Origin: Betaproteobacteria bacterium
Lineage (GTDB): Bacteria; Pseudomonadota; Gammaproteobacteria; Burkholderiales; Thiobacteraceae
Direction: 5' to 3'
Assembly: GCA_024641855.1 (NCBI GenBank)
Contig: JAHECG010000002.1
Coordinates: 52,089-116,088, forward strand
DNA length: 64,000 nt
Shown here: positions 1 to 21,482 of the stretch, one piece after another
How the letters are laid out: each line of letters starts with the position of its first letter
Position numbering within the stretch: the stretch's first letter is position 1
The notes under the pieces: generated by a model
What the model was told of the DNA's origin: nothing
What the model saw: only the letters and a program-made list of their open reading frames with translations
Database searches by the model: none
Program-made: the position numbers and the translations under genes

Positions 1-1150
1 AAATGATCTCGCCACTCACAGGTGCATGAACTTCACTATCCAACATGAATTCACGAAGTTGTAGCGTTGCCATATTCGCAAACAATGGGATATTGCTTTG
101 CACCAAACCCAGCGCTTCCGAGACATTCCGAGCCCGGGTGTAATTTTTAAATTTAGCCTTTAGTAAGGGTTCATCGGCAGGCTCCACTGGATTGCCCAGG
201 ATGTACTCGACTACCTCGTAACCTTGATTCATCGCCTGCTTAATCAGCGGATAACCGGCTAAGGCACCGACGATGTAAAGACCAGGAACATTCGACTCAT
301 AGGTGGCAGAAACTTGCGGTACGGCATCCATATTGGCATTGGGGAACTCGATGCCAAAACTTTCTACCAACTTTCTCGGGGGAATTGCACCCAAACGGGC
401 AATGATGCGATTGCAGGCGATATTCTCTACGCCCTGCGGCGTTTGTGCGACGAAACAAATGGGCTTGCCATCGGTTTCTAGGGCTTCGACTTTAATCGCT
501 GTAGTGCTGTATCGGCACTCCAATTTACCTTCACCTATTGCCTTGTTGATTAAGTCAATATTCCCTTGTTTAACCCGCGCAAATTCCTGTGAGCGATTTA
601 TCAGAATAACGCGATTGTTTGCAGTCAAGGCGATTGCATTTTCAATCCCTGCATCCCCCGCACCAACCACAATGATAGTCTCTCCAGAATATTCATCTGG
701 GTCATCGAGTTGATACTGGACTAACTCAATATCTTCACCGGGCACACCCAATTTACGGATATTTCCTTGCAAGCCGATACCGAGAACAACATTCTCTGCT
801 GCATAAGTTTCACCGCTTGCTGTCTTAATCTGAAAGGCCCCTTTAGTGCCCGTAATCGATGTTACGGCCGCACGATACTGAACATTGACCTTATATTTAT
901 CTAATTCATTGTTCCATTTATCTAGAATCGTTTCACGCTTACCCGCTTCAAACGACATAGGGCTGCGCAAAGGCAAGATGGTTGGTTCATCCATCACATG
1001 TTTGCCTTTTTGATAACGATATATCGTATGCGAAGCGTGATCTTCGGCTTCTAGCAAAACATGTGGGACGCTCAACTCAGCGGCATGCGCGGCACAAGAG
1101 AGCCCACCAGGACCAGAACCAATGATGGCGATTTTTACACTGTTCGTCAC
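1..1150 (-). CDS. FAD/NAD(P) oxidoreductase, probably with C-terminal cyclic-nucleotide-binding domain (partial)
   Basis: This reading frame is absent from the ORF track because it runs off the left edge; I translated it by hand. It starts at a GTG that overlaps the stop of the pentaheme gene (GTGA). The N-terminus carries the FAD-binding motif GSGPGGLSCAA, and a second dinucleotide fold VVGAGDAGIENA near residue 150 suits NAD(P)H. This is the two-nucleotide-fold plan of thioredoxin-reductase-like and YpdA-like flavoproteins. No CxxC redox motif is visible, so a disulfide reductase role is unlikely. The last visible residues (PLFANMATLQLREFM...SGEII) resemble the start of a cyclic-nucleotide-binding domain, which would continue outside the window. 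There is no signal peptide, so it should be cytoplasmic. As the last visible gene of the cytochrome operon it may pass electrons between NAD(P)H and the membrane cytochromes; that role is inferred from context. Confidence 0.8.
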   Translation of the reverse strand, partial: MTNSVKIAIIGSGPGGLSCAAHAAELSVPHVLLEAEDHASHTIYRYQKGKHVMDEPTILPLRSPMSFEAGKRETILDKWNNELDKYKVNVQYRAAVTSITGTKGAFQIKTASGETYAAENVVLGIGLQGNIRKLGVPGEDIELVQYQLDDPDEYSGETIIVVGAGDAGIENAIALTANNRVILINRSQEFARVKQGNIDLINKAIGEGKLECRYSTTAIKVEALETDGKPICFVAQTPQGVENIACNRIIARLGAIPPRKLVESFGIEFPNANMDAVPQVSATYESNVPGLYIVGALAGYPLIKQAMNQGYEVVEYILGNPVEPADEPLLKAKFKNYTRARNVSEALGLVQSNIPLFANMATLQLREFMLDSEVHAPVSGEII

Positions 1151-2469
1151 TTTACCGATCCTTTTGCGATACTGGATTTAAGTGCGCGCAAGGCTTGCTC
1201 AAAGCTCGCAGAGCGATATTTCTCATCGTTGGCAACCAGCGCAAGCAAACGTGTCAAATCAGCGCGTAGCGTGACCGTACGCAGCATGCCACTTCGGCCC
1301 ATGAAATCAGCAACACTTTGCACCGCCATGACAGCCTGTTCAGCCCCTTGATAATCTCCATATTGACCATCAAGTCCTTCGTCGATCAGTCCGATCATGA
1401 TGTTGCGTAAATCATCGGCAGAGAATCGGTGTGCACTGATCTTGGGAATTAGTTTGGTAATGGAATCTTGCACAATGCGTGCCTTTTGCAAACCATCATT
1501 ACCATCAGCGATCGCATGATGCATGGCTGAAACGGCAGCGGCCAGTTCCGCAGCCTCTTTGACATCGATGCGTTTCGCGATTTGGCGCAACATCAGGAAA
1601 GTCGCGTCGTTAATGCGCACAATACCCGGGCCCGCACCGACACGCGCGGCTGTATTACGCTTATCACTCATGTTGTGGTGGCAAGAGTGGCAATCGAATA
1701 ATACCAACTCCGGAAATAATCCATCACGCCCACGAGGACCCAGCAACAATCCTAGTAACTCTTGAGAGTACACCGCTTGCCCTATGGCCCAGGCACGTAC
1801 GCCATCCCATGAGCCTTTTCGCTTGTGCCAATCCTCATCAATCCGGAAATGGGCAGGACCGATTTGCGTGAAGGTATCTAATTCGAAGCTCATACGTGGG
1901 TGGCCAGCCGCCATAATACGGTGCGTCACGAATTTCTTTTGCGTTCCTAAGTGACAGGACAAGCACAACTGCACACGAGCAACATCATTCTCTGTCGGAT
2001 AAAGTCCTTTTTCCAAATTACCCGCGTGCGTTGCTTTCAACTCTACGTGACTTTTTATCCATCGCTCACCTGCACCATGGCAAGCCTCACAGGAGACACC
2101 ATCGCTGATGGTGAATTTTTCACCGTGCTGCGCCGGCGCCGGATTGTGCGCATGGCAATCCAGGCATAGCGCCGATTTATGGGCCGGTTCTTTTAAGCCA
2201 AGTTTCTTTGCAATATCTTTTGAGCGATCGTTGAGGAGTACCGCATAGGCACGCGAATGTTTGTCTGTGCGGATCCATGTGACATACTCATTTTGCAATA
2301 CATTTGAGTCTTTCCAGGTCTCGATCGAACCATGACAGAGACTGCTCGAGCAACTTGCCACGCCTAACGACTTGTCATGTGCGTATTGGGGTAGCACGTT
2401 TTCGGCCATGGCAATGCTTGAAACAAGCAGGGACAACACAATGGCAACTAAAGTGGTGGGTTTCATCAT
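1147..2469 (-). CDS. Periplasmic pentaheme c-type cytochrome, cytochrome c554-like
   Basis: A 440-residue exported protein with a signal peptide ending near AMAEN. It has five heme-binding motifs: one unusual CX4CH (CSSSLCH, about residues 40-46) and four ordinary CXXCH (CLDCH near 102, CEACH near 128, CLSCH near 168, CHSCH near 260). The spacing and the early motifs resemble the cytochrome c554 family, which carries electrons in the periplasm. The C-terminal 170 residues have no heme motifs and look helical. It starts at an ATG overlapping the stop of the decaheme-LVIVD gene and ends overlapping the flavoprotein start, so it is translationally coupled on both sides. An electron-shuttle role between inner- and outer-membrane cytochromes is inferred; no enzyme activity can be assigned. 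Confidence 0.85.
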   Translation of the reverse strand: MMKPTTLVAIVLSLLVSSIAMAENVLPQYAHDKSLGVASCSSSLCHGSIETWKDSNVLQNEYVTWIRTDKHSRAYAVLLNDRSKDIAKKLGLKEPAHKSALCLDCHAHNPAPAQHGEKFTISDGVSCEACHGAGERWIKSHVELKATHAGNLEKGLYPTENDVARVQLCLSCHLGTQKKFVTHRIMAAGHPRMSFELDTFTQIGPAHFRIDEDWHKRKGSWDGVRAWAIGQAVYSQELLGLLLGPRGRDGLFPELVLFDCHSCHHNMSDKRNTAARVGAGPGIVRINDATFLMLRQIAKRIDVKEAAELAAAVSAMHHAIADGNDGLQKARIVQDSITKLIPKISAHRFSADDLRNIMIGLIDEGLDGQYGDYQGAEQAVMAVQSVADFMGRSGMLRTVTLRADLTRLLALVANDEKYRSASFEQALRALKSSIAKGSVK

Positions 2470-5400
2470 GGTTTCACCGTCGCTGTAGGTGGCATTTTAA
2501 CCGTCCAGGGCGTGCCATCTGGTTTGAGGTAAAGCTTTCGCTGTTCCTCCAGATTGAAGGGGCGCGAACCAACACGCCCGAAGATCGCAACTTGGCCGCC
2601 TGTTTCATCAACTCCCCGATCACGCTCCAAACCGCGCGAAAGTGCCAACGCAGGACTTTGTGTTTTCTTTTGTGCGATTAAGTGTGGCTTTGGATCCGGT
2701 GTGAAGCCATAAAATTTTGGCTGTATTTCCGGTGAAGTCAATTGCAGCACTTTCAACCCATTGCGACCGTCAGCTACATAACCGATTAAAGAGGCATTGG
2801 TGGTTGCCACGACTACGTCACGCGCATCGTTTAAGCTACCGTCGGCTGTAAATTTCTGATACAGCTTAGGCTTCTCTGGGTTTTCAATATCCACAATCAC
2901 CAAACCTTCTGGCCCAGCCGCCACATAAGCAAAGCTACGCGCAATGTACACGCGATGTGCGTCTTTCAGTGGAATGAAAGCCCCCTCAACCACTTTCGCA
3001 CGCTCCGGTAAAGTGATATCGACAATCCGCAGTCCGGTATCATCAAGCACGGTCAAATAGCGGAATTGCAGTGCGCTAGAACGAATACCTTTCATCGGAA
3101 TGACTTTGGTCACAACCGGTTTCAATGGGTCATTCAGGTTAAGGATGACCAGACCTGCATCGGCCGCAATATACGCATAGTAGCCACCCATGGTGATATG
3201 CCGCGCACCATTCAAGATGCCATTTTCATTCCATGTCAGGGCGCGTGTCAGGTAATTGTTCTGTGGATTACCGTCTTGCAAGGTATTCACATCCGACAGG
3301 ATCAGACCTTCCTTGGCATCTGTAATAAAGACGTAGTTATAAATCGGATGCATGGGTTGCTCTAGATTGTCATGCCGAATTATTTCTGTATTTTTAAGCG
3401 GTGCGACGGGTTGATTGGTCGGCAATGCCATACAAGTCGCGTTCGTCGAAGCAATGTGCGTATCGTGCCCCAATGGCGAAAATGGGGCTGTCAGTATGCG
3501 CTGCGAAATGCCTTTATTGGCAATGGATGCGACATCGTAGACCCGCATCCCTCCAGCGCCTTCTGCAACATACAGATATTCGCCCCGTAGCTGAATGCAG
3601 GAAGCATTACCTTCCGTAGTATGGTTGTGCGCTTCCGGCAATTCCAGACCGCGCTTTTGGTGCTCAGCATAAAAATCCGGGTACGCGTAGCGATGCAGGT
3701 AACTGCCAATGACGGCTTGTGGCTCTTCCCACTCGGTGACTTGAATACCTTCTACGTGCTTCTCTTCGCCCAAGAAAGCATCGTAGCCGACAAATCCTAC
3801 AAAACCGGTTCCGTGCAACAACAACTGCGCCATGATGGCGTTGTTGTCGTTCTTTGGCGATAAATGACAATCATCACAAGTCTTGGTTTCAGTTTTCCGC
3901 TCGGTATGCGCATAGTGTGGCGCGAACGCTTGGCTCGAATAGCCGCTGGCGGCCGTCGGCGGCTGTTGCACATAAATATGTTCTCGATTGATATTGGTAG
4001 ATGACAATACCAACGCAGAAGACGAACGCACCGGCGCAATTTTTCCACCCTTCGATGGACCGTGTATCCCTAACTGGAACATTTGATCACGTGCGACTTG
4101 GGGGTTATAAGTTGCAAAATTTCGCGTCTCGCCACCTTCGTAATGCTGACGCTCGGTTTTATCATTAGCCTCGATCGGCAGATGACACCCTGCACAACTG
4201 GTAGTCCAAGACGTATGGCAAGTCTGGCATAACATCCGACTATCTTTATGCGCACGTTTATTGGCCGGCACTGACGCGTCCCAGCGTTGCTGATAATCAT
4301 CAAAGCTGCCTTCGGCTACGAGTTTAGCGTGCGCGGCTTTTTCATTGTATTTAGCATGTTTCGGATTAACCGAATCTTTGACCAGCGACATCTCCCATTC
4401 CTTATCGGGATAGAGCGAGGAACGTTGGAACAATTTACCCTCGCGCCATTCAAAGCGCTTGCGACCGTCCGGGGTGCGCAACAGACTCATATCCATACCG
4501 CCCGGCTTTGCCGCAGGACCCGTGGTAAATAGGGTCGGATAATTATCCACAGTACCATGGCAGTCTTCGCAGGTGATTTCGATAGCATCTGCCACTTGTG
4601 TATAGATAAATCCGTTGCCGTGGGCATCTTGTGAAAAATGGCAATCGACGCAATGCATTCCCAGATCGACATGAATGGACTGAAGATGTACGGCCTTCTT
4701 AAATTTTTCAGGATCCGTATCAGATACCTTGCCGCCATCCTTGTCCAAAAGCGTACCTTTACGATCACGTTTGTATATGGCGCGGAAATTCCAGCCGTGC
4801 CCGTGGTAATCGGCGAACTGGGTATCTTGGAGTTTCGGATTTAGGTCAAACACATTTTTTAGAAACTCCGGATCGCTCCAATTTCCGCGTACAGCAGCCC
4901 CCTCAGGATTACGCTTATAAATCTCGTGGCGCTCTTTATCTGTTGGATAACGTTGTTTCTTCGGCCACATAAAAGGCGCATCCGATTCGTAATCCCACAT
5001 GGTGTAGCCGTAGAACGTGTTCACAAATACATTCGGTTGATGCATGTGACAAATCATGCATTGTGAAGATGGAATAGCCCGCGTGAACTCGTGTTTTAAG
5101 GGATGGCCTGACTTATCTTTGGGGATCGTCGGGTCTGCCGTAATCGTTTTTCCTTCATGACCAAATTTTGCATAGGGGCCTGAATGAAATTCTTGACGGT
5201 CATTGGCATACACGACATGGCATCCAGCGCATCCGGATGAACGATAGTCGCCGGGTTGCTCATTGGTACCCAGAAACCACATAAACGGGTCGTTTAAGCG
5301 CGTCTTCGTAATATTGAGTACCGGAATCGCGATGCGCGAACCTGTCCCCGGGCCGCGATTGGACTGCTTGATATCCGGCCTACCGGGCTCATCCAATAAT

Positions 5401-6224
5401 TGTAAACGCCCGGTACTATTCGGAATGGCAATTTCCGGAAATTGACTACTAATAACGCGACCACCGCGTTCAAACACACGGAAAATATCAGCCGGCGGAA
5501 CAGTCTCCCAAGCGGGAAGCGGATAATACTGCGCAACGATCCCCTTTTCGATCAGTCTTTGTTTCTCAGACTCCGACAAATTCGGTGGTAAAGGACTTTT
5601 AATCGAAGCTGCTTGCCCATCTTCGGTATAAGCCTCACCCAACACGCCACGCTTAAACGGAAGAATTCCATTGTTATAGGCGCCGCCATTCCACAACATA
5701 GCGCCGGTCGACATCAGGCTACGTTCTGCCGCTTGAATGACGGTGAGGTGGCAGGCACCACAGGCATGCCGCACCACACGGTAATCAGACGGATTCATGA
5801 AACGAATGAATGCTGGGCTCTCTTGGTTAATTAACGTGAATGAACCTTGTGGATTCGCAGAATCTGGCGTGCGCCATTTCTCAGGAAAGCGCGGCAAAAT
5901 ATGCGCTTCATTCATCGCATCCGCATAAGCACTATGATTTTTACCTTTATAAATTGCATTTTTTGGTTTTTCAATTTTGACATTACCACCATGGCAATCG
6001 ACACAACCCAGAATGACTGCTGGATTACTATGCATGGTGTGACGGTCGGTAGCCGTGTGGCAAGTAACACATCCCGCAGATTTCGCATCTGCTTCGCGCT
6101 GCGTCTGTTTTTCTGGCGCAGGTGGCGCTGTTACCTTAATTTTTTCAGCTACATGGCCCGAAGTGCTGGCCTGAATGCCTACCGAAACCAGGATTAACAG
6201 TAGTGTTACAGTGAGTTTCTTCAT
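2466..6224 (-). CDS. Secreted decaheme c-type cytochrome with C-terminal LVIVD beta-propeller repeats
   Basis: A 1252-residue protein with an N-terminal signal peptide (cleavage near IQAS) and no lipobox. I count ten CXXCH motifs: CVTCH, CVDCH, CGACH, CAGCH, CMICH, CVDCH, CEDCH, CQTCH, CAGCH and CDDCH, spread from about residue 52 to about 780. The last 400 residues hold about six LVIVD-type repeats (for example GLVIVDIENPEKP, GLRIVDITLPERA, GLVILNLNDPLKP), which usually form a beta-propeller in cell-surface proteins. The ATG at 6224 overlaps by one base the stop of the beta-barrel gene upstream, so barrel and cytochrome are probably made in step. By analogy with porin-cytochrome complexes it may sit in or outside the outer membrane. 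It is not a recognisable MtrA, MtrC or OmcA relative. Confidence 0.85.
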   Translation of the reverse strand: MKKLTVTLLLILVSVGIQASTSGHVAEKIKVTAPPAPEKQTQREADAKSAGCVTCHTATDRHTMHSNPAVILGCVDCHGGNVKIEKPKNAIYKGKNHSAYADAMNEAHILPRFPEKWRTPDSANPQGSFTLINQESPAFIRFMNPSDYRVVRHACGACHLTVIQAAERSLMSTGAMLWNGGAYNNGILPFKRGVLGEAYTEDGQAASIKSPLPPNLSESEKQRLIEKGIVAQYYPLPAWETVPPADIFRVFERGGRVISSQFPEIAIPNSTGRLQLLDEPGRPDIKQSNRGPGTGSRIAIPVLNITKTRLNDPFMWFLGTNEQPGDYRSSGCAGCHVVYANDRQEFHSGPYAKFGHEGKTITADPTIPKDKSGHPLKHEFTRAIPSSQCMICHMHQPNVFVNTFYGYTMWDYESDAPFMWPKKQRYPTDKERHEIYKRNPEGAAVRGNWSDPEFLKNVFDLNPKLQDTQFADYHGHGWNFRAIYKRDRKGTLLDKDGGKVSDTDPEKFKKAVHLQSIHVDLGMHCVDCHFSQDAHGNGFIYTQVADAIEITCEDCHGTVDNYPTLFTTGPAAKPGGMDMSLLRTPDGRKRFEWREGKLFQRSSLYPDKEWEMSLVKDSVNPKHAKYNEKAAHAKLVAEGSFDDYQQRWDASVPANKRAHKDSRMLCQTCHTSWTTSCAGCHLPIEANDKTERQHYEGGETRNFATYNPQVARDQMFQLGIHGPSKGGKIAPVRSSSALVLSSTNINREHIYVQQPPTAASGYSSQAFAPHYAHTERKTETKTCDDCHLSPKNDNNAIMAQLLLHGTGFVGFVGYDAFLGEEKHVEGIQVTEWEEPQAVIGSYLHRYAYPDFYAEHQKRGLELPEAHNHTTEGNASCIQLRGEYLYVAEGAGGMRVYDVASIANKGISQRILTAPFSPLGHDTHIASTNATCMALPTNQPVAPLKNTEIIRHDNLEQPMHPIYNYVFITDAKEGLILSDVNTLQDGNPQNNYLTRALTWNENGILNGARHITMGGYYAYIAADAGLVILNLNDPLKPVVTKVIPMKGIRSSALQFRYLTVLDDTGLRIVDITLPERAKVVEGAFIPLKDAHRVYIARSFAYVAAGPEGLVIVDIENPEKPKLYQKFTADGSLNDARDVVVATTNASLIGYVADGRNGLKVLQLTSPEIQPKFYGFTPDPKPHLIAQKKTQSPALALSRGLERDRGVDETGGQVAIFGRVGSRPFNLEEQRKLYLKPDGTPWTVKMPPTATVKP

Positions 6225-8584
6225 TAGAAAGTGAGCAGTAGATTAAAGAGTGCTGAATATTGGCGCGCATCAACTGCGTTACCATAGATTTCCTTTAAGC
6301 CCTCCAGCGGCTCCAAGGTGGCGAACGACGCATTCAACACTACGTTTTGTGAGAAGTAAGGCCGATATTGAATCCCGACTGAAAGGTCGTATCCAAGCCT
6401 AGTGCTATGGAGTCGTTGGTTACGCAGCACCGCCAGCGAAGATAAATTATCGAATTCTAAATAATTCGCATTGGTAATCACGCGCAACCGCGGTGTAATA
6501 TCGAAATCCGCACCAACGCCAAACAAATGGATGCCTGGATTGGTGAAGTTCGACTGACCATGTTCACGTGAGGTTCGTAGATTTGCCAGGATGCCATTAC
6601 GCGTTGATAACGCAGTACCGCCACCACCAATCAACGGTACTGATTGACGAATAAAGTAGCTGGTATCAGCGCCTGCAAATTGTGGATTTTCTAAAACGGA
6701 GTCAAAGCCACCCGCTTTATTATCATAAGGATCCTTATCACCAGAAGCCCAAAGTGCACTGGCACGTACGCGATACCAATCGAAGTCTCGAGATAATTCC
6801 ATCGCCCCAAAATAAGCGCTAATATCTTCTTTGACACCGGACAGTTGTCCTTTGCTTACGTTACCCGTTGCGTAATAGCCAGATAAATTAAGATTCCAAC
6901 GTCCAAAGTGGCCATCTCCATTCAAGCCGAGATAGGTAACATCATAATTATAGGGTCGCCCGGATCCGAAAATTGCAGGACGTTCCAAGAACCCATTATC
7001 GTTAAAATAAAGGGGGCGGCTGCCTTCGCGATTACGACTGTGCAGAACTGTACCTTGTGTGGTAAAGCCAAGCACTGGCGTATCTTGGCTATAAACGTTA
7101 AACAGGAACAAGTCTTCTTTACGCAAGCTTTGGCTAATATCATTCAAGCCACTATTGGTATCTTTTTCCAAACGACGAAACCAGCCAAGATTGTATTGCA
7201 ACGTGTTATTAGCACGCGTACCAAACAAACGCACACCCAAAGGTTGGTCAAGAAATAGAAAGCCACGAAAATCGGCGGTGATGGGCTGAATGCCGACGCG
7301 CAAGCTATCAAAGTCGTAACGATCAGAAACGTTGCGCAAGTGCTTATCAACGAACAACTCTTGTACGGCTGCAAAGCTATCGGTACGCGTAGGACCATTA
7401 GCAGGATTAACATTTACTGCGCGCACTTCTTGAGTATGCGTGTAGTTAACATTGAAAACCGGAACAAAACGGAATTCGTAATCCGGTGGTTTAAACGTTG
7501 TATTACCCTTGATCAACGCAAAGTTGAAAATTGCAGTTTCCGCCAACGTGTATTGCTTGCCGCGTCCAAAAGTGCCATTGGAGCCAGCATTCAGCGTGGA
7601 TTGCGCGCCCACAGGCGTTGGCAACCGTCGCGCTTCAATTAAGGTGTCAGAAATCGCGCCAAAGTTAAAAAACCATTCATCGCCCAGCACATCCTGTAAC
7701 ACGGGTAGATCACCCTTAATCACATTTGGGTTATACGGGTCGAGGATATTGTAGGGCAGTAAATTCAGCGCCTTCACCAGACGCCAGCGATCCCGTATCG
7801 GAATTTCCTCGCGCACCAGATAAGGCGCTGGTGGTTCAACTTGTGACGGATCAATGATAGGAAGTCGAGGCTCAATAGGCGCACCTTGTGGACGGCTGCG
7901 TACGACGGCCGTTTCTTTTTCCTTTTCTTGCGCAGCGACAACTTCTGCGGCTTGCGCTTTCGTTAAGGATTCTGTCCGACGCGGATCCAATTGGCCTGCC
8001 GCATAATCGATGCGCCGATCTTTCGGAAATGGCTTAATAACTAACGTCGAACCCGTCCCGGTAGGTGCATTGAATATCCAAGCTTCACCACCACCAAAGC
8101 GTTTTACGCGATACCAATCGCCTTGTTTTAGATCTGCATCGAGTTCGACGCTTTGCTCTATGCGTGCAATCACTGGCAAGGATTGATCAGGGTGCTCATA
8201 GACAGCAACACTCGGCGCCAGCACTTGAACCAAGTAATGTTGGGTTGTTATCTCCGCCGCTGACTCAGCCACGGATGTAGACGCGCTTGCCATGTGGATC
8301 AAATCCGACCGAACCCAACCTTCCCGATCTAATACCGCAGGTTTAGTTCGCCGAATTTTGCTCCATCCATTCTCCTGTTGCAGTACCTGCACTATTTCGC
8401 CCCGGTACATCACAGCCAAGATGCGTTCATCTTCTCCCGGACCTGCACGCATGCGCGATGCGGTTGCAACTTCCGCTTGCGTCTCGACGGCTGCAGCCAA
8501 TACAGGTTGCACCCAAATCATTGGCGCTGTCAGCGCAAATAGGGACGCTACCATTAAACGAAGTTGTCTATTTTTATTTGCCAT
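6224..8584 (-). CDS. Outer-membrane beta-barrel protein with N-terminal SH3-like domains
   Basis: A protein of about 786 residues. I chose the ATG at 8584 (MANKNRQLRLMV), which overlaps the stop of the preceding gene by 11 bases. The track start at 8623 would overlap by 50 bases and put extra residues before the signal peptide. After the signal peptide (ending near PVLAAA) come two bacterial SH3-like segments: one containing MRAGPGEDERILAVMYRGE and a second around YLVQVLAPSVAVYEHPDQ. A charged Ala/Glu-rich linker follows. The remaining 500 residues alternate polar and aromatic/hydrophobic residues as in a beta-barrel, and the protein ends in phenylalanine (LLLTF), as outer-membrane proteins commonly do. 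Its place directly before a secreted decaheme cytochrome suggests it is the barrel sheath or anchor for that cytochrome. The SH3 segments may contact peptidoglycan or a partner. Confidence 0.75.
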   Translation of the reverse strand: MANKNRQLRLMVASLFALTAPMIWVQPVLAAAVETQAEVATASRMRAGPGEDERILAVMYRGEIVQVLQQENGWSKIRRTKPAVLDREGWVRSDLIHMASASTSVAESAAEITTQHYLVQVLAPSVAVYEHPDQSLPVIARIEQSVELDADLKQGDWYRVKRFGGGEAWIFNAPTGTGSTLVIKPFPKDRRIDYAAGQLDPRRTESLTKAQAAEVVAAQEKEKETAVVRSRPQGAPIEPRLPIIDPSQVEPPAPYLVREEIPIRDRWRLVKALNLLPYNILDPYNPNVIKGDLPVLQDVLGDEWFFNFGAISDTLIEARRLPTPVGAQSTLNAGSNGTFGRGKQYTLAETAIFNFALIKGNTTFKPPDYEFRFVPVFNVNYTHTQEVRAVNVNPANGPTRTDSFAAVQELFVDKHLRNVSDRYDFDSLRVGIQPITADFRGFLFLDQPLGVRLFGTRANNTLQYNLGWFRRLEKDTNSGLNDISQSLRKEDLFLFNVYSQDTPVLGFTTQGTVLHSRNREGSRPLYFNDNGFLERPAIFGSGRPYNYDVTYLGLNGDGHFGRWNLNLSGYYATGNVSKGQLSGVKEDISAYFGAMELSRDFDWYRVRASALWASGDKDPYDNKAGGFDSVLENPQFAGADTSYFIRQSVPLIGGGGTALSTRNGILANLRTSREHGQSNFTNPGIHLFGVGADFDITPRLRVITNANYLEFDNLSSLAVLRNQRLHSTRLGYDLSVGIQYRPYFSQNVVLNASFATLEPLEGLKEIYGNAVDARQYSALFNLLLTF

Positions 8585-10457
8585 CGCACACATTGGTTTC
8601 ATTTGAGTCAAGATAAGGCGCAACCGGACAGTTCACGTAGCGCAACTGCCCACCCGGTAAGCCCATAATCGTGTCGGCACGAATAGCGACTTTTGCATTA
8701 TGAATATCGCTCCCAGCACCTAACGCTACACCCGCATTATAAAGCCCGATAAAAGAGATGAAGTTATCCTGGTCGATACCGTCACCGGAAATGCCAATAC
8801 CACCGACCAACGTATCACCACGATAAATTGGGAAACCACCGGAGAATATCTGGATACCATTGGCCGATACTGCACTGCAGGTGGCCGCAGGCGTTGCAGT
8901 CAAAATATTGTTCACAACTTTAGTTCCTACCAAATCCAACTGTAAACCCACATTAAACGGGCTCCACTTGGTACTGTAATCCAGAGACAGCGGCCCCGCC
9001 GCGTTCGCATTTATACCATCCGGGAAAAACGGACGCGCGATCAAACCAATCGTTCTGTTACTGTAGGCAATGCCATCGGCAAATGCCGTCGTGCTGATCT
9101 GCGCTCTTGCGTTCGTTGTGTATTGGCTAATAGCGCCATTATTAATCCCCGCCGCACCCACCACAAAACCCGGTTGCGCATTTAACGTTGCATAGGCATC
9201 TGTGCGCGAAAAAAACATGGAGGTGCGCGCTTTTTGCACCGCTACATCGGTGCCAAATACCGGTGCATCCGGCGTGCGGATCAACCCAACAATCGCACCA
9301 TTGGTATCCACCACGGCGATATTCACTTGCGCTTGAGAACCTAGTGGCAAACGAATTTGACCCCGCGTGCGGTTAGTAACGCGGATGTTCTCGGCTAGAA
9401 TTTGAATCACTTCCGCCTGCGTCATTAAGCCATCCGTACCAGCGATAGCTGGGTAGCGGTTAACTCCCGCACCATTCACCAGCACAAATGCATTTAACCC
9501 AGTGAAATTGCCGCTACTATCAGCTAAATAACCTGATGCAGCCGTATTAAATGCGGTGCCATCTATCACGCCACCAGCCGCGGTGAAGTAGCCTGGAACA
9601 TCGACCAAAGCGCCACCGGACGGCATCGCCGGTGCTACTGCAGGATTCGTAGAAATTGCCTCGGAATCGGTAAACCGCAGGGTGCGTCCATCAACGGTAA
9701 TGCGATCAGCACGACGATTCGTCGGGGCGCTAAACCCACTGCTACCTGCCACAGCAATGAGTTCATCGACGCTCATATCGGTGTCAAGTATGTTCAAGTC
9801 TAGACTATATAAACCATCGGATATTACGCCGATGCCGCCAACCACCGTCCCATTTTTGTAAAGCGGCAATCCACCGGGGTCAGCCGAAAGTCCCAGGGGT
9901 GCACCGTGTGGGCCACGGCTACCGCCTGCTGCTTTATTCCAGGCGACATCAGAACAGGACAGTGAAGAAAACTGCACACCGAACAAAGGACCGCCTGGTT
10001 GATTTGTTTCATGCGGATTGAAATTCTGCTGCACAATTTGGCTCGCCGTACGACTGGTAAACGCATTGCCTTCAGAAGAAAGAAATGCACCGGTAATCGC
10101 TTTGCTGATGGCCGTGTATTCTGCACCGACCGCTACGCCTTGCAACCCACCGGTTACTGCACGACCAGCGGTAATCGTCGCGTTGGATGCACCACCGATT
10201 TGATAGACTCCCAAAACATTACCAACCCGATCCACGACAGCAATCGTGGTATTTGCGGCAAGATGCGCTTGGGCCTCTTTGACCGCTTGACTGATGATGC
10301 GATTGACTTCAGCCGCAGACAAGAAACTGGGCGTTGTCAAGGCGCAACTACCTGTACAGCCTGCGTCGCTGTTGATTGTCGCTCCGCCACCACCACCGGC
10401 ACTACCGCCACACCCGGTGAGTATGCTCAACAGCAACAAGACAACGATCAATCTCAT
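8574..10457 (-). CDS. Lipoprotein with two HbpS/GlcG-like (heme-binding type) domains
   Basis: A protein of about 627 residues. I chose the ATG at 10457 because it overlaps the preceding stop (ATGA), follows AAGGAAAG as ribosome-binding site, and opens a clean lipoprotein signal with lipobox LTGC followed by a Gly-rich stretch. Two copies of an HbpS/GlcG-like domain follow. Both show the family pattern AVVD..G..LG, a central KA-rich segment, and a closing GG.P(I/L)Y..G..VGGIG (GGLPLYKNGTVVGGIGV and GGFPIYRGDTLVGGIGI). Members of this family bind or degrade heme, or act as sensor accessory proteins. Here the domains are expanded by large inserts, so the usual function cannot be assumed. Within a multiheme cytochrome operon it may help heme delivery, assembly or redox sensing. 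Confidence 0.75.
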   Translation of the reverse strand: MRLIVVLLLLSILTGCGGSAGGGGGATINSDAGCTGSCALTTPSFLSAAEVNRIISQAVKEAQAHLAANTTIAVVDRVGNVLGVYQIGGASNATITAGRAVTGGLQGVAVGAEYTAISKAITGAFLSSEGNAFTSRTASQIVQQNFNPHETNQPGGPLFGVQFSSLSCSDVAWNKAAGGSRGPHGAPLGLSADPGGLPLYKNGTVVGGIGVISDGLYSLDLNILDTDMSVDELIAVAGSSGFSAPTNRRADRITVDGRTLRFTDSEAISTNPAVAPAMPSGGALVDVPGYFTAAGGVIDGTAFNTAASGYLADSSGNFTGLNAFVLVNGAGVNRYPAIAGTDGLMTQAEVIQILAENIRVTNRTRGQIRLPLGSQAQVNIAVVDTNGAIVGLIRTPDAPVFGTDVAVQKARTSMFFSRTDAYATLNAQPGFVVGAAGINNGAISQYTTNARAQISTTAFADGIAYSNRTIGLIARPFFPDGINANAAGPLSLDYSTKWSPFNVGLQLDLVGTKVVNNILTATPAATCSAVSANGIQIFSGGFPIYRGDTLVGGIGISGDGIDQDNFISFIGLYNAGVALGAGSDIHNAKVAIRADTIMGLPGGQLRYVNCPVAPYLDSNETNVCDGK

Positions 10458-12238
10458 TTCTTTCCTTTCGGCTTCGATAATAATTGCGCTTGCATCTCGG
10501 CGTGCCAATAATTTCGACCGGCATGGAATTGATGGCAAGTAGCGCAATCCGACGTCACTTTTCCGGATACTGGCTTAGCACCGACATGGCACTCTCGACA
10601 CTTCTCGATATTCGGCATCGCAATATCTTTGGATTCTTTCGAATTTTTGACAGCATGACAGCTCGCACATTCCTCGGTCGTATGTTTGGCGTGCGAAAAT
10701 ATCGCTTGCGGCATCCACACTTGCGCGATGCGTACCGGCGCGACTTCCCAACCGTTTTCATCGCCAGTCCGTTTGACGATATGGCAGGTGCTGCACACCT
10801 TGCGTTTCTCAAACATGTCGTACAACACTTGCTTCGCCTTTTGATTGGCGATTAGCAGCGCCTCTTGGCGTTGCGGATAGCTCAACACTGCACCAGGTCG
10901 CATCCGCCGCAGATCAGGAGGAGGGCTAACTCCGGGCGGAACATCACCAAGCACTAAACGCGCATAGAATTCACGCAACATCGTAGCCATTTCCGTTTCC
11001 GAGCCATGCGGCGCCTGACGGTTTGTCACTTGCGGCTCAAACGCCAGTGAGTGGCACTTCTGACAGTGTTGCTCCATCACAATCGGCTTGATCAACCGAC
11101 CGCCTTCGTCAGGTTCGTGGCAATCGGCGCACTTCATTACCGTACGACGTCCTTGTGCATCGCGCACACCAGCGGCATCCCGCTTACCATCAGGATCGCG
11201 CACACCATCTGGATCCAGATGCAATTTATGGTTGAACTTGAGGTTGGAATGTTCAACCAGCAGTTCCGCGTTCTTCTTATCTTGACGCACACGTCGAATC
11301 AACTTGGGTTTATCTGCATCCAGCAACGATAGACGGAAAGCCGGATGTTCAGTCCGGAAATCTGTCACCTTGCCAGACTGCGCGTCGGCGGCGACTTTCT
11401 CCACATCCGTATGACAATCCGCGCATTGCTCTTGCGCACGCGGCGCCAATTGCTTTCCTTTATGATCGCGATGACATTCAGCGCAACGCATGTCGCGAAA
11501 TGCAGCGCCTTGAGGCCCCGTCAATTCCTTAGCAGGAACATGTTCTTTGATTCGCTTATGACAAGTGACACACTCCTGATCGCGCGTATGTTTGAAAGGA
11601 ATCTGGTGGCATGCTCTGCAATCCGAAGCAAAAGGTTGATGGCCTTGGGACAGCGGCCCGGGATTCCAGGATTGCGTGAATTTGGCGCTAACCGCCTGCG
11701 TCATTTGCCCCACCGAACCCGCGTTCATCTTAGCCGCAGCTGGCGAACTCAATCGACCCAACAAATCCGCTGAGATTGGAACCAGCAAAGTCAGTATTAA
11801 TAAGCCAAGAAAAGCTAAATAGGACAAACGACGTTTTGAAATACGATTTTCAGTCGGTGCAACTCGAGTCAGAATATCCCCTGCGTCTCCACCTTCCAAG
11901 GGGTTCACCAACGTGATGGACAACGCCAGCGGTATTCCCTCCGACGCAGCCTCGACTTGCAGTAAATAGGGGCCGACTTCAATACGGTCGCCGATCGCTA
12001 ATCGGCTATTTTGAGCGGCTTGTCCATTGACCTGAATACGCCCAGGATCGGCCTCAATGACAGTACCGTCATCGGTAACGGTAATGCGCGCATGAGATAA
12101 GGCTACACGCGGATCGGCCAAATGAATTTGACATTGCGTGCCGCGGCCAATAATGAACACTGAACCCGGAATACGTCTTTGATCGCGCTGGGTCTGACCC
12201 CGTTGATTGACCGTAACATTGGTAACTTGGATTTCCAT
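10454..12238 (-). CDS. Inner-membrane decaheme c-type cytochrome with cytoplasmic FHA domain
   Basis: A 594-residue fusion. Residues about 25-95 form a forkhead-associated (FHA) domain (FIIGRGTQCQIHL...RIQVNG). A single membrane helix follows near 131-155 (LAFLGLLILTLLVPISADLL). Then comes a periplasmic region with ten CXXCH motifs: CRACH, CVTCH, CAECH, CADCH, CADCH, CQKCH, CSTCH, CASCH, CRECH and CATCH. The predicted topology is FHA inside, hemes outside. FHA domains normally bind phosphothreonine. Here the conserved Ser three residues before the His is Ala (ALSHARI), and the Asn of the STNG-type loop is missing, so phospho-binding may be lost. The gene lies 18 bases after a b-type cytochrome gene and overlaps the lipoprotein gene, so it likely takes electrons from or gives them to the membrane b-cytochrome. 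Confidence 0.88.
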   Translation of the reverse strand: MEIQVTNVTVNQRGQTQRDQRRIPGSVFIIGRGTQCQIHLADPRVALSHARITVTDDGTVIEADPGRIQVNGQAAQNSRLAIGDRIEVGPYLLQVEAASEGIPLALSITLVNPLEGGDAGDILTRVAPTENRISKRRLSYLAFLGLLILTLLVPISADLLGRLSSPAAAKMNAGSVGQMTQAVSAKFTQSWNPGPLSQGHQPFASDCRACHQIPFKHTRDQECVTCHKRIKEHVPAKELTGPQGAAFRDMRCAECHRDHKGKQLAPRAQEQCADCHTDVEKVAADAQSGKVTDFRTEHPAFRLSLLDADKPKLIRRVRQDKKNAELLVEHSNLKFNHKLHLDPDGVRDPDGKRDAAGVRDAQGRRTVMKCADCHEPDEGGRLIKPIVMEQHCQKCHSLAFEPQVTNRQAPHGSETEMATMLREFYARLVLGDVPPGVSPPPDLRRMRPGAVLSYPQRQEALLIANQKAKQVLYDMFEKRKVCSTCHIVKRTGDENGWEVAPVRIAQVWMPQAIFSHAKHTTEECASCHAVKNSKESKDIAMPNIEKCRECHVGAKPVSGKVTSDCATCHQFHAGRNYWHAEMQAQLLSKPKGKK

Positions 12239-12256
12239 TGCGAGCCGGTCCTTGGG

Positions 12257-13138
12257 TTACCAGTAATAAAAGACGGAAAGAATATGCGCGATTAAGGTTG
12301 CGAGCAGCGCAAAAGATAAAGGCACATGCAGATACAACCAAATTCGCATGAGCGCCCGATAGCGCAAATCGCGACGAACGCGATCTGTTAATGCACTCTT
12401 ACGTGTCATTTCCGACAACAATTGCCCGTTAATGCGTGCTTGCTCCGGTGTTAATTTAGTGCCCACACGCATCAACGCATCACAAGCGGCACGCGTAGGA
12501 CAAAACTCATTCATCGCGGTAATTTGTCGACGCATGCTACTTCCCACCGCCAAGGCACGAGGATGGGCTCGGGTCGCTTTCAAAACAATGGTGTTGGCCT
12601 CATCCGGTAGATCTAATGCCAACTTTCGACATTTACGATCCAAGTCGGCAATCTTTAACAGCAAACTCTCCAACGTCTCTCCTGCAAGATTGCCCGTCAT
12701 GAGTTCGGGATATCGCAAATAGGCATAGACGCCAAAAAAACCACTCAGAATAACAATGACCATTAGGACATAGGCCAGGGTATGGATATTCCATCCAAAT
12801 TCGAAAGCACTATGCAATGTTGCAATAATGATTAAGCTTGTACCCAGGTAAACGTGCGCCGAAGTCCATCCTTGTACGCTGCCCATATTGGATCGATAGC
12901 GGCGCTTACGCACACCCAGCAACATCAACCATACAATCAAAACCGCAGCAATCGTACCTAAGGTATAGCCGAGCCAAGTGCCGCCATAAGGTTTAATGTA
13001 CACAACCGGGGGTTCATGCCATATATAAACGACCAGAGACAACACGCAGAACCATAACGCGAGTTTTAAGTAGCGCGCGCGCTTGAAGGCAAGAATAGAC
13101 TGATTTTGGTGCATGGCTGATGTTAGGCGAGAGCCCAT
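12257..13138 (-). CDS. Membrane b-type cytochrome, cytochrome b561-like
   Basis: A protein of about 293 residues with two helices near residues 25-45 and 55-75, two more near 90-115 and 120-140, a long charged segment of about 120 residues, and a final helix at the C-terminus. Histidines placed for heme b ligation are visible in SAHVYLGTSL and TLHSAFEFGW, and again in LHVPLSFALLATLIAH in the last helix. I see no CXXCH motif. The ATG at 13138 is preceded by AAGAGG; the GTG at 13141 is an alternative. As first gene of the operon it would connect the quinone pool to the FHA-decaheme cytochrome. The exact subfamily is not certain, and the large charged insert before the last helix is unusual. Confidence 0.75.
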   Translation of the reverse strand: MGSRLTSAMHQNQSILAFKRARYLKLALWFCVLSLVVYIWHEPPVVYIKPYGGTWLGYTLGTIAAVLIVWLMLLGVRKRRYRSNMGSVQGWTSAHVYLGTSLIIIATLHSAFEFGWNIHTLAYVLMVIVILSGFFGVYAYLRYPELMTGNLAGETLESLLLKIADLDRKCRKLALDLPDEANTIVLKATRAHPRALAVGSSMRRQITAMNEFCPTRAACDALMRVGTKLTPEQARINGQLLSEMTRKSALTDRVRRDLRYRALMRIWLYLHVPLSFALLATLIAHILSVFYYW

Positions 13139-13162
13139 CACCTCTTATTTTATTGGCGCGAT

Positions 13163-13535: not shown

Positions 13536-14033
13536 ATGCAGAAGCATAAACACAAAAGAATAATACGAACGCCTGGATTTACCTTGATCGAAATCCTAGT
13601 TGTCGTAATCATCATCGGCGTCATGGCAAGCAGTATTGCGATTAAGGCATTTCCGGATGATCGCAGCCGCCTACGACAAGAAGCTGAACGACTCGGATTA
13701 TTGCTAGCACAAGCGCGCGACGAGGCATTTCTCAGCGGCCACAGCATTACATGGTCAATACAAAATCAGACCTATAGCTTCTGGAAACTGAATAACGAAC
13801 GCCAATGGGTGCCGCTGACCAATAATCTAGCGCTAAGATCGCGCACCTTACCAACAACAATCTCATTAATTGATTTAACCATAAACGCAACGAAAGTTCC
13901 TTTGAGCCAAAGTGTAATATTCTCCCCATCCGGACTAAATATCCCATTTTCAGCCACTCTGGCTACGCAGGAGTATCGGGTACTCTTGTCAGGCGATAGT
14001 GCCGGTCGCATACAAATCAAAGATGAAAATTAA
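13536..14033 (+). CDS. gspH: Type II secretion minor pseudopilin GspH
   Basis: A 165-residue prepilin-like protein. A short basic leader precedes the prepilin peptidase site in PGFTLIEILVVVIII, where cleavage occurs after Gly and the new N-terminal Phe is methylated. The hydrophobic helix is followed by a globular domain of mostly beta character. In type II secretion, GspH belongs to the minor pseudopilins of the periplasmic pseudopilus. It opens a seven-gene operon H-I-J-K-L-M-N. FimT-like type IV pilus proteins look similar, but the neighbours settle the call. Confidence 0.88.
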   Translation: MQKHKHKRIIRTPGFTLIEILVVVIIIGVMASSIAIKAFPDDRSRLRQEAERLGLLLAQARDEAFLSGHSITWSIQNQTYSFWKLNNERQWVPLTNNLALRSRTLPTTISLIDLTINATKVPLSQSVIFSPSGLNIPFSATLATQEYRVLLSGDSAGRIQIKDEN

Positions 14034-14406
14034 AATACGCACAACTGGTTTTACGCTAATCGAAGTTTTAGTGGCACTCGCCATTCTAGGCATCGCTTTA
14101 TCCGCAGTTTTACGCGCCAGCGTCGTCACCACAGATCAAGCCCAAGCAATAAAACTGAAACTGCTGGCCCAGTGGAGCGCAGAAAATTTACTAGCAGAAC
14201 AAATAGCGCGTAAACATTGGCCAGATCCGGGGATACAAACAGGCAATAGCGAACAAGCCGGTATCACGCTGCAGTGGGAACAAACCACGACCACTACGCC
14301 AAATCCAGATTTTCGACGCATCGAAATTAAAATTTATGCGCAACCAGACCACACCTATGCTTTAACCCAATTAGTAGGGTTTGCAACAAATCCGTCAGCG
14401 TTATGA
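14023..14406 (+). CDS. gspI: Type II secretion minor pseudopilin GspI
   Basis: About 127 residues. The ATG at 14023 was chosen over the track start because it gives a short basic leader (MKIKIRTTG) before the cleavage motif GFTLIEVLVALAIL and overlaps the end of gspH by 11 bases. GspI initiates assembly of the pseudopilus tip complex with GspJ and GspK. The length and the C-terminal RRIEIKIYAQ region fit the family. It ends overlapping the start of gspJ. Confidence 0.87.
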   Translation: MKIKIRTTGFTLIEVLVALAILGIALSAVLRASVVTTDQAQAIKLKLLAQWSAENLLAEQIARKHWPDPGIQTGNSEQAGITLQWEQTTTTTPNPDFRRIEIKIYAQPDHTYALTQLVGFATNPSAL

Positions 14407-15023
14407 ACCTACACAGCAAACAAAAGGTATCAGGGTTCACGCTGCTCGAAATGCTCGTTGCGCTTGCCATCTTTGCAATAATATCCGTGATGACCTATCG
14501 CGGTCTGACGACTGTTCTGCAAACCCGTTCGCATCTTGCGCAAGAAAACCGCAAGTGGCAGGACGTGGCGCTACTCTTTACCCGCATTGAACAAGATTTG
14601 TCGATGCTGGCCAAGCGTTCCGTGCGTGATACCGACAACCGCTCTACTGCGCCATTCCTAGCCATGCCCATTGCACAGGGAGCACAAGACGCAATCCTCA
14701 TGTTTACCCGCATGGGATTCCCGGAACAAGCGAACACCTTAGCTGGACCATTGCGCTGCGGTTATCGCTTACGCCGCGATACCGTCGAACAACTTTTGTG
14801 GGCAGCCCCAGATGCAGCACCGCGCGCGACACCCATCGTCAATCATCTCCTAGACAATGTTGCCGCCATGGAATTCCAATATTTAGATCAGATAGGAACC
14901 TGGCACACGCATTGGCCACAACCGGGAAATACCCGTATTTTTCCCGCTGCCGTACGCATAGTCATCGAATTAAAATCCAAAGAACGCATTACACGGATTT
15001 TCGCCCTACCGGCATTACAATGA
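14403..15023 (+). CDS. gspJ: Type II secretion minor pseudopilin GspJ
   Basis: A 206-residue pseudopilin with cleavage motif GFTLLEMLVALAIFAI after a nine-residue basic leader. The rest matches the GspJ pattern of a conserved N-terminal helix (YRGLTTVLQTRSHLAQENRKW) and a beta-rich body that contacts GspI and GspK. The start overlaps the gspI stop (ATGA) and the stop overlaps the gspK start (ATGA), so the tip proteins are translationally coupled. Confidence 0.88.
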   Translation: MNLHSKQKVSGFTLLEMLVALAIFAIISVMTYRGLTTVLQTRSHLAQENRKWQDVALLFTRIEQDLSMLAKRSVRDTDNRSTAPFLAMPIAQGAQDAILMFTRMGFPEQANTLAGPLRCGYRLRRDTVEQLLWAAPDAAPRATPIVNHLLDNVAAMEFQYLDQIGTWHTHWPQPGNTRIFPAAVRIVIELKSKERITRIFALPALQ

Positions 15024-15949
15024 CCCGAGGCAAACAACAAGGCGCAGCCCTAATCTTGGCCATCCTCGTCGTAGCGTTAGCATCGACCATCGCTATCTTC
15101 ATGGCTAGCCAGCAGTCCTTGTGGACACAACAAATGCTTAATCTAAAGGGGCGTGCGCAAGCCGAGGCATTGGCGCATGCCGCAATCGATTGGTCACGCG
15201 GGGTATTGGCAGAAGATGCGCGCAACAGCAAAGCCGACCATTTTGGAGAATCCTGGGCGCGTGGCTTAATTTCGTTACCCGTCGAATCCACTAATATCAG
15301 CGGCACCCTTACCGATCAGCAAGCTTTGTTTAACTTAAATAACTTGGTGCGTGATGGCCATGACAGCGAAAATGATATCGCGTTGTTCAAGCGCTTACTG
15401 GCCCACTTGCAACTACCGACAGAGCTTGTGAATCCATTGTTGGATTGGATTGATGAAGATAGTATGGTACATATTCCCGGTGGCGCAGAAGATGTCGAAT
15501 ATTTGCAGAGTCCTCAACCATATCGATGCGCAAATCAAGCTTTATTGAGTGTCGATGAGCTTTACCGCGTGCGTGGTTTCAATAAATCGAATATAGACCG
15601 ACTTAAACCCTTCGTCACAGCGCTACCCGAACGCACGACGATTAATATCAATACCGCACCGCGTGAGATTTTGAGCGCCTTATTACCCGATTACGCAGAA
15701 ACTGATATCAGCACCCTACTCGATAATCGAAAGACTGCTTTTTTTAAAAGCAAACAAGATTTCCGCGCACGCCTGCCGATAGCCACATCGGGTTTGCGCG
15801 ATGAATCTTTTGATGTTGCCAGTAACTATTTTTTAGTCCAGATCATCGTACGTGCCCAACACGCCGACAGCGCTTACAAGGCGCTTCTGGCCAGGACGCT
15901 TACGGGGAACTGGCCAGTGATCGTTTGGCAATCAAAATTAGTCGAATAA
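15020..15949 (+). CDS. gspK: Type II secretion minor pseudopilin GspK
   Basis: About 309 residues from the ATG at 15020, which overlaps the gspJ stop; the track's longer start lies inside gspJ and is rejected. The leader MTRGKQQGAALILAILVVALAS lacks the usual Glu at +5, which is the hallmark of GspK. The large periplasmic domain contains the LNLNNL segment and helix-hairpin-like stretches (INTAPREILSALLP) typical of the family. GspK caps the pseudopilus tip. Confidence 0.88.
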   Translation: MTRGKQQGAALILAILVVALASTIAIFMASQQSLWTQQMLNLKGRAQAEALAHAAIDWSRGVLAEDARNSKADHFGESWARGLISLPVESTNISGTLTDQQALFNLNNLVRDGHDSENDIALFKRLLAHLQLPTELVNPLLDWIDEDSMVHIPGGAEDVEYLQSPQPYRCANQALLSVDELYRVRGFNKSNIDRLKPFVTALPERTTININTAPREILSALLPDYAETDISTLLDNRKTAFFKSKQDFRARLPIATSGLRDESFDVASNYFLVQIIVRAQHADSAYKALLARTLTGNWPVIVWQSKLVE

Positions 15950-15974
15950 ACATAACGCGTTTTTAGGATTAGGC

Positions 15975-17195: not shown

Positions 17196-17686
17196 TGAAA
17201 GACAAAATACTAGCCTTTTGGCAGCAACGAAATTACGCCGAGCGCCGCACCATCATGATCGCGGGCACGCTACTGATGACCGCACTACTGTATGTCTTTA
17301 TATGGCATCCGTTAACACAAGAACAACAGCGCTTACGAACCGTACTTCCGCAGATACGTGCTACAACGGCGCAAATGCATCATCAAGCTACAGCGATAAA
17401 CCATCTACGCAATGTGCCGCAAAAAAACTTTAACGCTAATATCCGTGAGGCCCTTGAAAAGGCGGCAGTAATTAGCGCACTTGGCTCACCATTTCAACAG
17501 ACGCTCCTAGACAATAGACACGCAAAAATCACAATCAATGCCATCGCCTTCGATCGCTGGATCGAATGGATCAATATTCTGCAATCAGAACAAGGTGTCC
17601 GTATTGAATCGGCGGAAATCGTTACGCTTACCGAACCCGGCATAGTGAAAATTCAAGCCACGCTTTCTTCGCCCGCCAGCCGCTAA
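17195..17686 (+). CDS. gspM: Type II secretion platform protein GspM
   Basis: A 163-residue protein with a short cytoplasmic N-terminus, one helix (IMIAGTLLMTALLYVFIW), a coiled-coil-like segment and a periplasmic ferredoxin-like domain. This is the standard architecture of GspM, the partner of GspL in the inner-membrane platform. Both ends overlap the neighbouring genes by one base. Confidence 0.85.
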   Translation: MKDKILAFWQQRNYAERRTIMIAGTLLMTALLYVFIWHPLTQEQQRLRTVLPQIRATTAQMHHQATAINHLRNVPQKNFNANIREALEKAAVISALGSPFQQTLLDNRHAKITINAIAFDRWIEWINILQSEQGVRIESAEIVTLTEPGIVKIQATLSSPASR

Positions 17687-21460: not shown

Positions 21461-21482
21461 TCTGATCGTGTCTTTAAACAGA

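Follow-up and report, generated by a model that had tools for sequence, protein, structure and literature searches.

Where do electrons travel in a bacterium whose genome encodes ten-heme cytochromes, an outer-membrane barrel and a flavoprotein within one compact operon? The question is raised by seven genes at the start of a 64,000-nucleotide stretch of DNA (the window) from Betaproteobacteria bacterium of the Thiobacteraceae (NCBI GenBank assembly GCA_024641855.1, contig JAHECG010000002.1, positions 52,089 to 116,088 of the forward strand). An earlier note, made from the window's letters, read them as a possible complete conduit from cytoplasm to cell surface, with extracellular Fe(II) oxidation or metal reduction as candidate roles. 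Judged by sequence and inheritance, the seven genes are a real electron-transfer machine spanning the cell envelope, organized as two modules (inner-membrane and outer) and inherited as a unit. There is about an even chance (probability roughly 0.5) that this machine sustains a cyclic-nucleotide-gated, NADPH-driven outward flow of electrons to a soluble substrate, ending at a secreted decaheme cytochrome with an LVIVD beta-propeller (decaheme-LVIVD).

Organization and inheritance of the operon

The decaheme-LVIVD protein was used as query against bacterial and archaeal genome contigs, yielding 160 confirmed relatives, the best 80 of which are 59-84% identical to the window protein. Joint occurrence, which the earlier note had proposed as a check, was assessed by mapping all seven proteins on these loci; the same genes are joined in alpha-, beta- and gammaproteobacteria and recur together in dozens of genomes, far more than chance would allow. 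This bears out the note's coupled trans-envelope redox operon linking NAD(P)H with the outer membrane and shows it to be conserved. Among 398 evenly sampled Pseudomonadota genomes, the full decaheme-LVIVD protein is found in 12 (~3%; alpha, beta and gamma). The barrel family is found in 13, namely the same 12 and one genome (G184) with a contig that ends right after the barrel; the overlap has a chance expectation of ~5e-22 if shared ancestry is ignored. Strong cytochrome b matches occur in 16 genomes, comprising the 13 barrel carriers and three others (G041, G012 and G074). G041 represents a contig end. G012 (locus L144, G012:C18) holds a reduced variant with a partial HbpS gene, no barrel and no LVIVD protein, and G074 (locus L146, G074:C50) encodes a flavoprotein fused to cytochrome b (1120 amino acids) with no outer module.

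Gene order varies by lineage. In betaproteobacteria the flavoprotein gene closes the operon, whereas most other carriers have it in first place. Hyphomonas, Parvularculaceae, Sphingobium and one further family (f72) have the set split into two operons, an inner one (flavoprotein, cytochrome b, FHA-decaheme) and an outer one (c554-like cytochrome, HbpS, barrel, decaheme-LVIVD). In 13 genomes the c554-like gene mostly does not adjoin the other genes, yet all 13 contain it. Identity distances of all seven proteins intercorrelate (r 0.67-0.93); the tightest inner-module block is formed by flavoprotein, cytochrome b and FHA-decaheme (r 0.89-0.91), and the c554-like protein best tracks decaheme-LVIVD (0.93). 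Horizontal spread was considered as the main mode of dispersal and rejected, given that the decaheme-LVIVD tree largely matches taxonomic classes with few changes; this pattern points to descent that is mostly old and vertical, with some loci on plasmids, including large ones in Sphingobium and Sphingopyxis. Besides these two genera, the named carriers are Dokdonella, Tahibacter, Solimonas and Pseudoteredinibacter, all aerobic heterotrophs; species with the cluster include Sphingobium herbicidovorans, Solimonas fluminis and Dokdonella immobilis.

In the window, seven successive open reading frames (ORFs) run on the minus strand from 13141 down beyond position 1 (Table 1). They encode, in order of transcription, a cytochrome b, a decaheme cytochrome with an FHA-like domain (FHA-decaheme), an HbpS lipoprotein, the barrel, decaheme-LVIVD, a c554-like cytochrome and a flavoprotein. 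The sole intergenic gap comprises 18 bases (12239-12256) between the cytochrome b and FHA-decaheme genes; the remaining junctions overlap by 1-4 bases, or by ~10 or more at the HbpS/barrel junction, depending on the chosen start. The HbpS gene probably starts at the ATG at 10457, within an ORF that opens at 10547. These positions confirm the coupled operon, gene order and junctions described previously. Each decaheme protein contains ten CXXCH motifs and the c554-like cytochrome four, plus one CX4CH; since the latter is kept in nearly all homologues, the earlier count of 25 c-heme motifs is right if it is included (24 CXXCH + 1). The assignment of gene 7 as a flavin/NAD(P) oxidoreductase was sound for its FAD/NAD(P) part, though incomplete, as the full protein of 801 amino acids adds two cyclic nucleotide monophosphate (cNMP)-binding domains and a 4Fe-4S dicluster.

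Table 1. Coordinates of the operon and its flanking genes. Positions refer to the window unless marked L001, the locus of the window's own contig (G000:C39; G000 is the window's genome) that reaches beyond the window edge.
Feature	Position	Strand	Description
Gene 1	12257..13141	-	Inner-membrane cytochrome b (PF01292), inner-membrane protein (IMP) of PCC3/PCC4 type
Gene 2	10454..12238	-	Cytoplasmic FHA/YscD-like domain, one transmembrane segment and periplasmic decaheme part, 10 CXXCH
Gene 3	8574..10457	-	HbpS/GlcG-like lipoprotein; lipobox LTGC-GG
Gene 4	6224..8602	-	Outer-membrane beta-barrel, 18 strands in model (AlgE-like), two N-terminal SH3 domains
Gene 5	2466..6224	-	Secreted decaheme cytochrome, C-terminal LVIVD beta-propeller, ExtM-related heme core
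Gene 6	1147..2469	-	c554-like periplasmic cytochrome, 4 CXXCH + 1 CX4CH
Gene 7	1..1150	-	Flavoprotein, first 383 amino acids inside window; cut by window edge
Gene 7, complete	L001 10834-13239	-	801 amino acids: FAD/NAD(P) oxidoreductase, two cNMP-binding domains, 4Fe-4S dicluster (PF13247)
Flanking type II secretion genes, gspH onwards	13536..18438	+	Context only, outside the redox system

Modules at the inner and outer membranes

The window's cytochrome b contains WX3HX13H twice together with SGXXG, a combination described as the signature of PCC3/PCC4 inner-membrane proteins (He et al. 2017; PMC5566968), and its four ligand histidines are invariant in 28 sequences; H120 is invariant as well. 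Its proposed electron donor is the flavoprotein, whose gene lies directly upstream of cytochrome b in most alpha- and gammaproteobacterial loci; the PF13247 match has an E-value of 7.9e-9. In both cNMP phosphate-binding motifs of the flavoprotein, Gly and Arg are invariant and Glu nearly so. The flavoprotein consensus also includes the sequence NRRDEFARAK, which resembles the NADPH motif of thioredoxin reductase. Signaling genes accompany the cluster in several lineages. CHASE2 proteins adjoin it in six loci (L035, L074, L124, L131, L132 and L155), with adenylate/guanylate cyclase domains in all three that were scanned (L035, L124 and L131); PP2C phosphatase genes follow it in ten gammaproteobacterial loci, mostly with an FHA gene adjoining the phosphatase; and calcineurin-type phosphoesterases occur in alphaproteobacterial loci.

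FHA-decaheme is more variable (33% mean identity, 51 of 594 positions invariant) and has ten conserved histidines besides those of its ten CXXCH motifs, so that all its hemes are possibly bis-His ligated. A YscD-like model outscores the FHA model for its N-terminal domain. The phosphothreonine ligand set GR...S-x-x-H...N is incomplete in this domain, GR and H being mostly kept and the Ser at H-3 being Ala or Arg in most sequences. Phosphothreonine binding is therefore doubtful, and control of the system through it has been downgraded. For the c554-like cytochrome, the sole meaningful relative in a sequence search of the PDB is cytochrome c554.

Decaheme-LVIVD is the most conserved protein of the system, averaging 64% identity in a set of 30 diverse sequences; 308 of its 1200 positions are invariant, most of them outside the heme motifs. 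Sixteen further histidines are conserved, and all hemes are possibly bis-His ligated. The NCBI ExtM model hits its heme core at 80.7 bits (E = 7e-23; cut-off 800), and the core aligns with ExtM-like 12-heme cytochromes (E = 8e-30), while the PDB sequence search returned no convincing relative of either this protein or the barrel. The structure model is unreliable outside the propeller, and a fold search recovered only a generic beta-propeller. Porin-cytochrome and nanowire cytochromes of Geobacter have been reported to be poorly conserved (PMC12977616). Set against these, the conservation of decaheme-LVIVD suggests a catalytic or tightly packed role, more that of an enzyme than of a wire. Free-standing ExtM-like cytochromes of 10-12 hemes also occur without the Ext operon and without the present operon (L118-L122), one of them (L121) adjoining a TorC-type pentaheme protein.

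The barrel is modeled with 18 long strands at a mean predicted local distance difference test (pLDDT) score of 66, most barrel strands reaching 80-90. Structurally it is closest to AlgE and then to OprD/Occ porins; the 50 best matches do not include MtrB. The MtrB barrel has 26 strands, and by known barrel geometry 18 strands are too narrow for an MtrA-type decaheme. The model thus leaves a porin-cytochrome conduit unsupported, although one in another arrangement is conceivable. The SH3 domains of the barrel are limited to the betaproteobacterial branch (14 of 97 barrel ORFs). In the genus of the window's organism, the type II secretin GspD (L001 5120-7546, left of the window start) bears at its N-terminus an SH3 domain resembling the barrel's (E = 1e-10 to 3e-23); a homologous GspD adjoining the operon in locus L008 gave no SH3 match. 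These similarities suggest domain sharing between the type II secretion system (T2SS) and an operon embedded within its gene cluster.

The operon sits between gspG and gspH, with gspC-G on its other side (L001 4272-10779), and T2SS genes adjoin it in several betaproteobacterial loci and in three alphaproteobacterial metagenome-assembled genomes. This adjacency is the best hint of a component that reaches the cell surface. The T2SS exports MtrC and OmcA in Shewanella. A secreted surface partner is also possible, given ShlB-like neighbors: on plasmid pMSHV of Sphingobium herbicidovorans (L155 1-10680), a CHASE2-type protein, a ShlB two-partner-secretion transporter and a 2092-amino-acid protein are encoded directly upstream of the outer operon, and ShlB-like genes also lie close to L131 and L144. 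Further genes border the T2SS cluster of the window's organism. Read from sequence, those at 18435-23480 of the window encode a GGDEF-EAL protein, then a periplasmic binding-like protein and a TonB-dependent receptor; just beyond the other end (L001 358-2537) lie genes for a metallophosphatase and for a Ser/Thr kinase that includes a universal stress protein domain.

Proposed outward electron flow and competing explanations

In the favored mechanism, electrons would pass from NADPH through FAD, the 4Fe-4S centers and two b hemes to FHA-decaheme, then through the c554-like cytochrome to decaheme-LVIVD, which would act at the outer membrane as terminal catalyst and reduce a substrate there. The barrel would admit or release the soluble substrate, or anchor the cytochrome and lipoprotein, rather than insulate a heme wire, and cyclic nucleotides would gate the entry flavoprotein. 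Outward flow to a soluble substrate is favored because the system is not tied to iron oxidation across its carriers. The remotely related Ext cluster serves as the analogy behind the leading guess at the substrate, a soluble oxidant, for instance an oxyanion or a metal complex. In its fullest form, advanced tentatively, this would be a respiratory or detoxifying system of aerobic Pseudomonadota: a cyclic-nucleotide-switched pathway from NADPH to the outer membrane, comprising a decaheme beta-propeller enzyme with a new multiheme reaction, a heme-binding lipoprotein and an AlgE-like channel. Several points weigh against outward flow to a soluble substrate. The direction of flow is not readable from sequence, and for PCC3 and PCC4, where the inner module is shared, inward transport of electrons has been proposed. 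The enzyme-like conservation of decaheme-LVIVD could also stem from tight protein-protein packing; its model is trustworthy only in the propeller, the barrel model has a mean pLDDT of only 66, and the T2SS adjacency fits a surface conduit better.

Such a conduit would be of PCC type, crossing the outer membrane with the barrel holding or docking a cytochrome and with decaheme-LVIVD exchanging electrons at the surface with minerals, electrodes or cells in either direction. Homology of the inner module to PCC4, and distantly to PCC3, speaks for this arrangement, as do the T2SS adjacency in beta- and alphaproteobacteria, with its Shewanella precedent, and the lipoprotein and barrel encoded beside the decaheme protein. 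It is nevertheless on the unlikely side, because the modeled barrel is far narrower than MtrB and lacks a fused heme protein, and decaheme-LVIVD far exceeds typical conduit cytochromes in conservation. The porin-cytochrome conduit proposed by the earlier note accordingly loses its footing: no heme path across the outer membrane is shown by an 18-strand, AlgE-like barrel without an MtrB match. The cNMP domains and the clustering of CHASE2-cyclase, phosphoesterase, PP2C phosphatase and FHA genes with the system could instead indicate non-respiratory sensing, repair or detoxification in the periplasm (e.g. of metal oxyanions or reactive oxygen) under the control of second messengers and protein phosphorylation. 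This explanation suits the mainly aerobic life of the named hosts and the place of the ExtM relatives in a cluster for selenite/tellurite reduction (PMC5877670). However, 25 hemes are a large investment for a sensor, the FHA serine for phosphothreonine binding is not conserved and the signaling neighbors are lineage-specific, making the proposal improbable.

Dedicated Fe(II) oxidation, with electrons moving inward to quinone or NAD(P), draws its support from the host. The window's organism is probably an autotrophic iron oxidizer, because its genome holds two RuBisCO large-subunit matches, an Mto-type cluster (G000:C138, L159 3704-8055) encoding a monoheme cytochrome, an MtoA-like decaheme, an MtrB/PioB-family barrel and a NapC-like tetraheme, a Cyc2-motif protein (G000:C33, L160 1801-3174) and a PCC3-like cluster. 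Yet this inventory also means that the host already has three other candidates for Fe(II) oxidation. An MtrB/PioB-family match is missing from ten of the 12 carriers tested, and the Cyc2 motif likewise from ten of 12, which means that the system does not generally serve Fe(II) oxidation. No recognized iron oxidizer is named among the 80 closest loci, the named carriers are aerobic heterotrophs, and of nine further genomes from the same genus or family just one has the system. A specific role in Fe(II) oxidation, as proposed earlier, is thus highly improbable.

Envelope-spanning multiheme systems have mostly been sought in metal reducers and iron oxidizers, whereas the present carriers include culturable aerobic genera. 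Should NADPH electrons indeed be exported on a cyclic-nucleotide signal, the outer membrane of ordinary soil- and water-dwelling bacteria would have an additional, regulated redox function.

Relationship to known systems

The seven-gene system is apparently undescribed so far: searches of the open literature, with subscription papers and supplements outside their scope, returned no description of the gene set. He et al. (2017; PMC5566968) also describe additional clusters of multiheme and inner-membrane proteins, including one with a porin in Leptothrix cholodnii, and these might be the same system. To say that the parts match nothing known would go too far: the outer module resembles no described conduit, but the inner module is related to PCC4 and PCC3, and the decaheme-LVIVD core is a remote relative of ExtM. 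The separation from MtrCAB, MtoAB and Cyc2 stands. Like the present system, MtrCAB, MtoAB and PioAB encode decaheme proteins together with an outer-membrane barrel in a single operon. However, the barrel has no match to the MtrB/PioB family (TIGR03509), the DmsE/MtrA-family decaheme model (TIGR03508) scores 31.3 bits against a cut-off of 192.2, and 18 modeled strands versus 26 argue against an MtrA-type plug. Cyc2 fuses a single heme to its outer-membrane barrel, whereas the barrel here lacks CXXCH. The alginate exporter AlgE is the best structural match (E ~1e-14, TM-score ~0.6 on target, 18 strands) at 11-12% identity, a similarity of fold only that implies no alginate function.

The Ext cluster of Geobacter (extHIJKLMNOPQS) mediates selenite/tellurite reduction (PMC5877670) and likewise encodes a porin and a cytochrome b alongside multiheme cytochromes. 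Homology is remote only, decaheme-LVIVD scoring far below the curated ExtM cut-off (80.7 versus 800 bits); the LVIVD propeller is an addition of the present operon, which has no rhodanese, Rieske protein or selenocytochrome. With PCC3, the system shares a distantly related FAD/4Fe-4S protein and a cytochrome b distantly homologous to the IMP encoded by the PCC3-like cluster that this genome also holds (E = 4e-12). PCC3 multiheme cytochromes are very heme-rich (median 34 and 21) with low-complexity repeats, unlike those of the present operon. The PCC3-like cluster of the window's genome (G000:C56, L147 4142-11593) encodes its cytochrome b IMP and a divergent FAD/4Fe-4S protein together with a 24-heme and a 17-heme protein (the latter 17 or larger, being masked).

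The closest resemblance is to PCC4. Besides the shared IMP motifs, the cytochrome b profile matches the IMP of the PCC4-like locus L148 (E = 6e-14), and gene 7 corresponds to the PF13247 4Fe-4S protein found next to the IMP in PCC4 subgroup II. Three PCC4-like loci, identified by gene content alone (L148, L151 and L152), likewise hold a c554-like cytochrome, a cNMP/4Fe-4S protein and a decaheme adjoining cytochrome b. In contrast, no counterpart to the ExtM-related decaheme-LVIVD and no HbpS lipoprotein were seen in these loci, and the presumed porin of L148 is unrelated, the barrel profile giving no match. PCC4 multiheme cytochromes have 4, 5 and 10 hemes versus 10, 10 and 4+1 here, and L148 and L151 encode a separate FNR-type reductase, whereas the present system fuses its FAD/NAD(P) domain to the cNMP-FeS protein. 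On sequence grounds, the inner module is a branch of the PCC4 type and the outer module is not; PCC4, PCC3 and the present system have a related inner-membrane entry module joined to differing outer modules.

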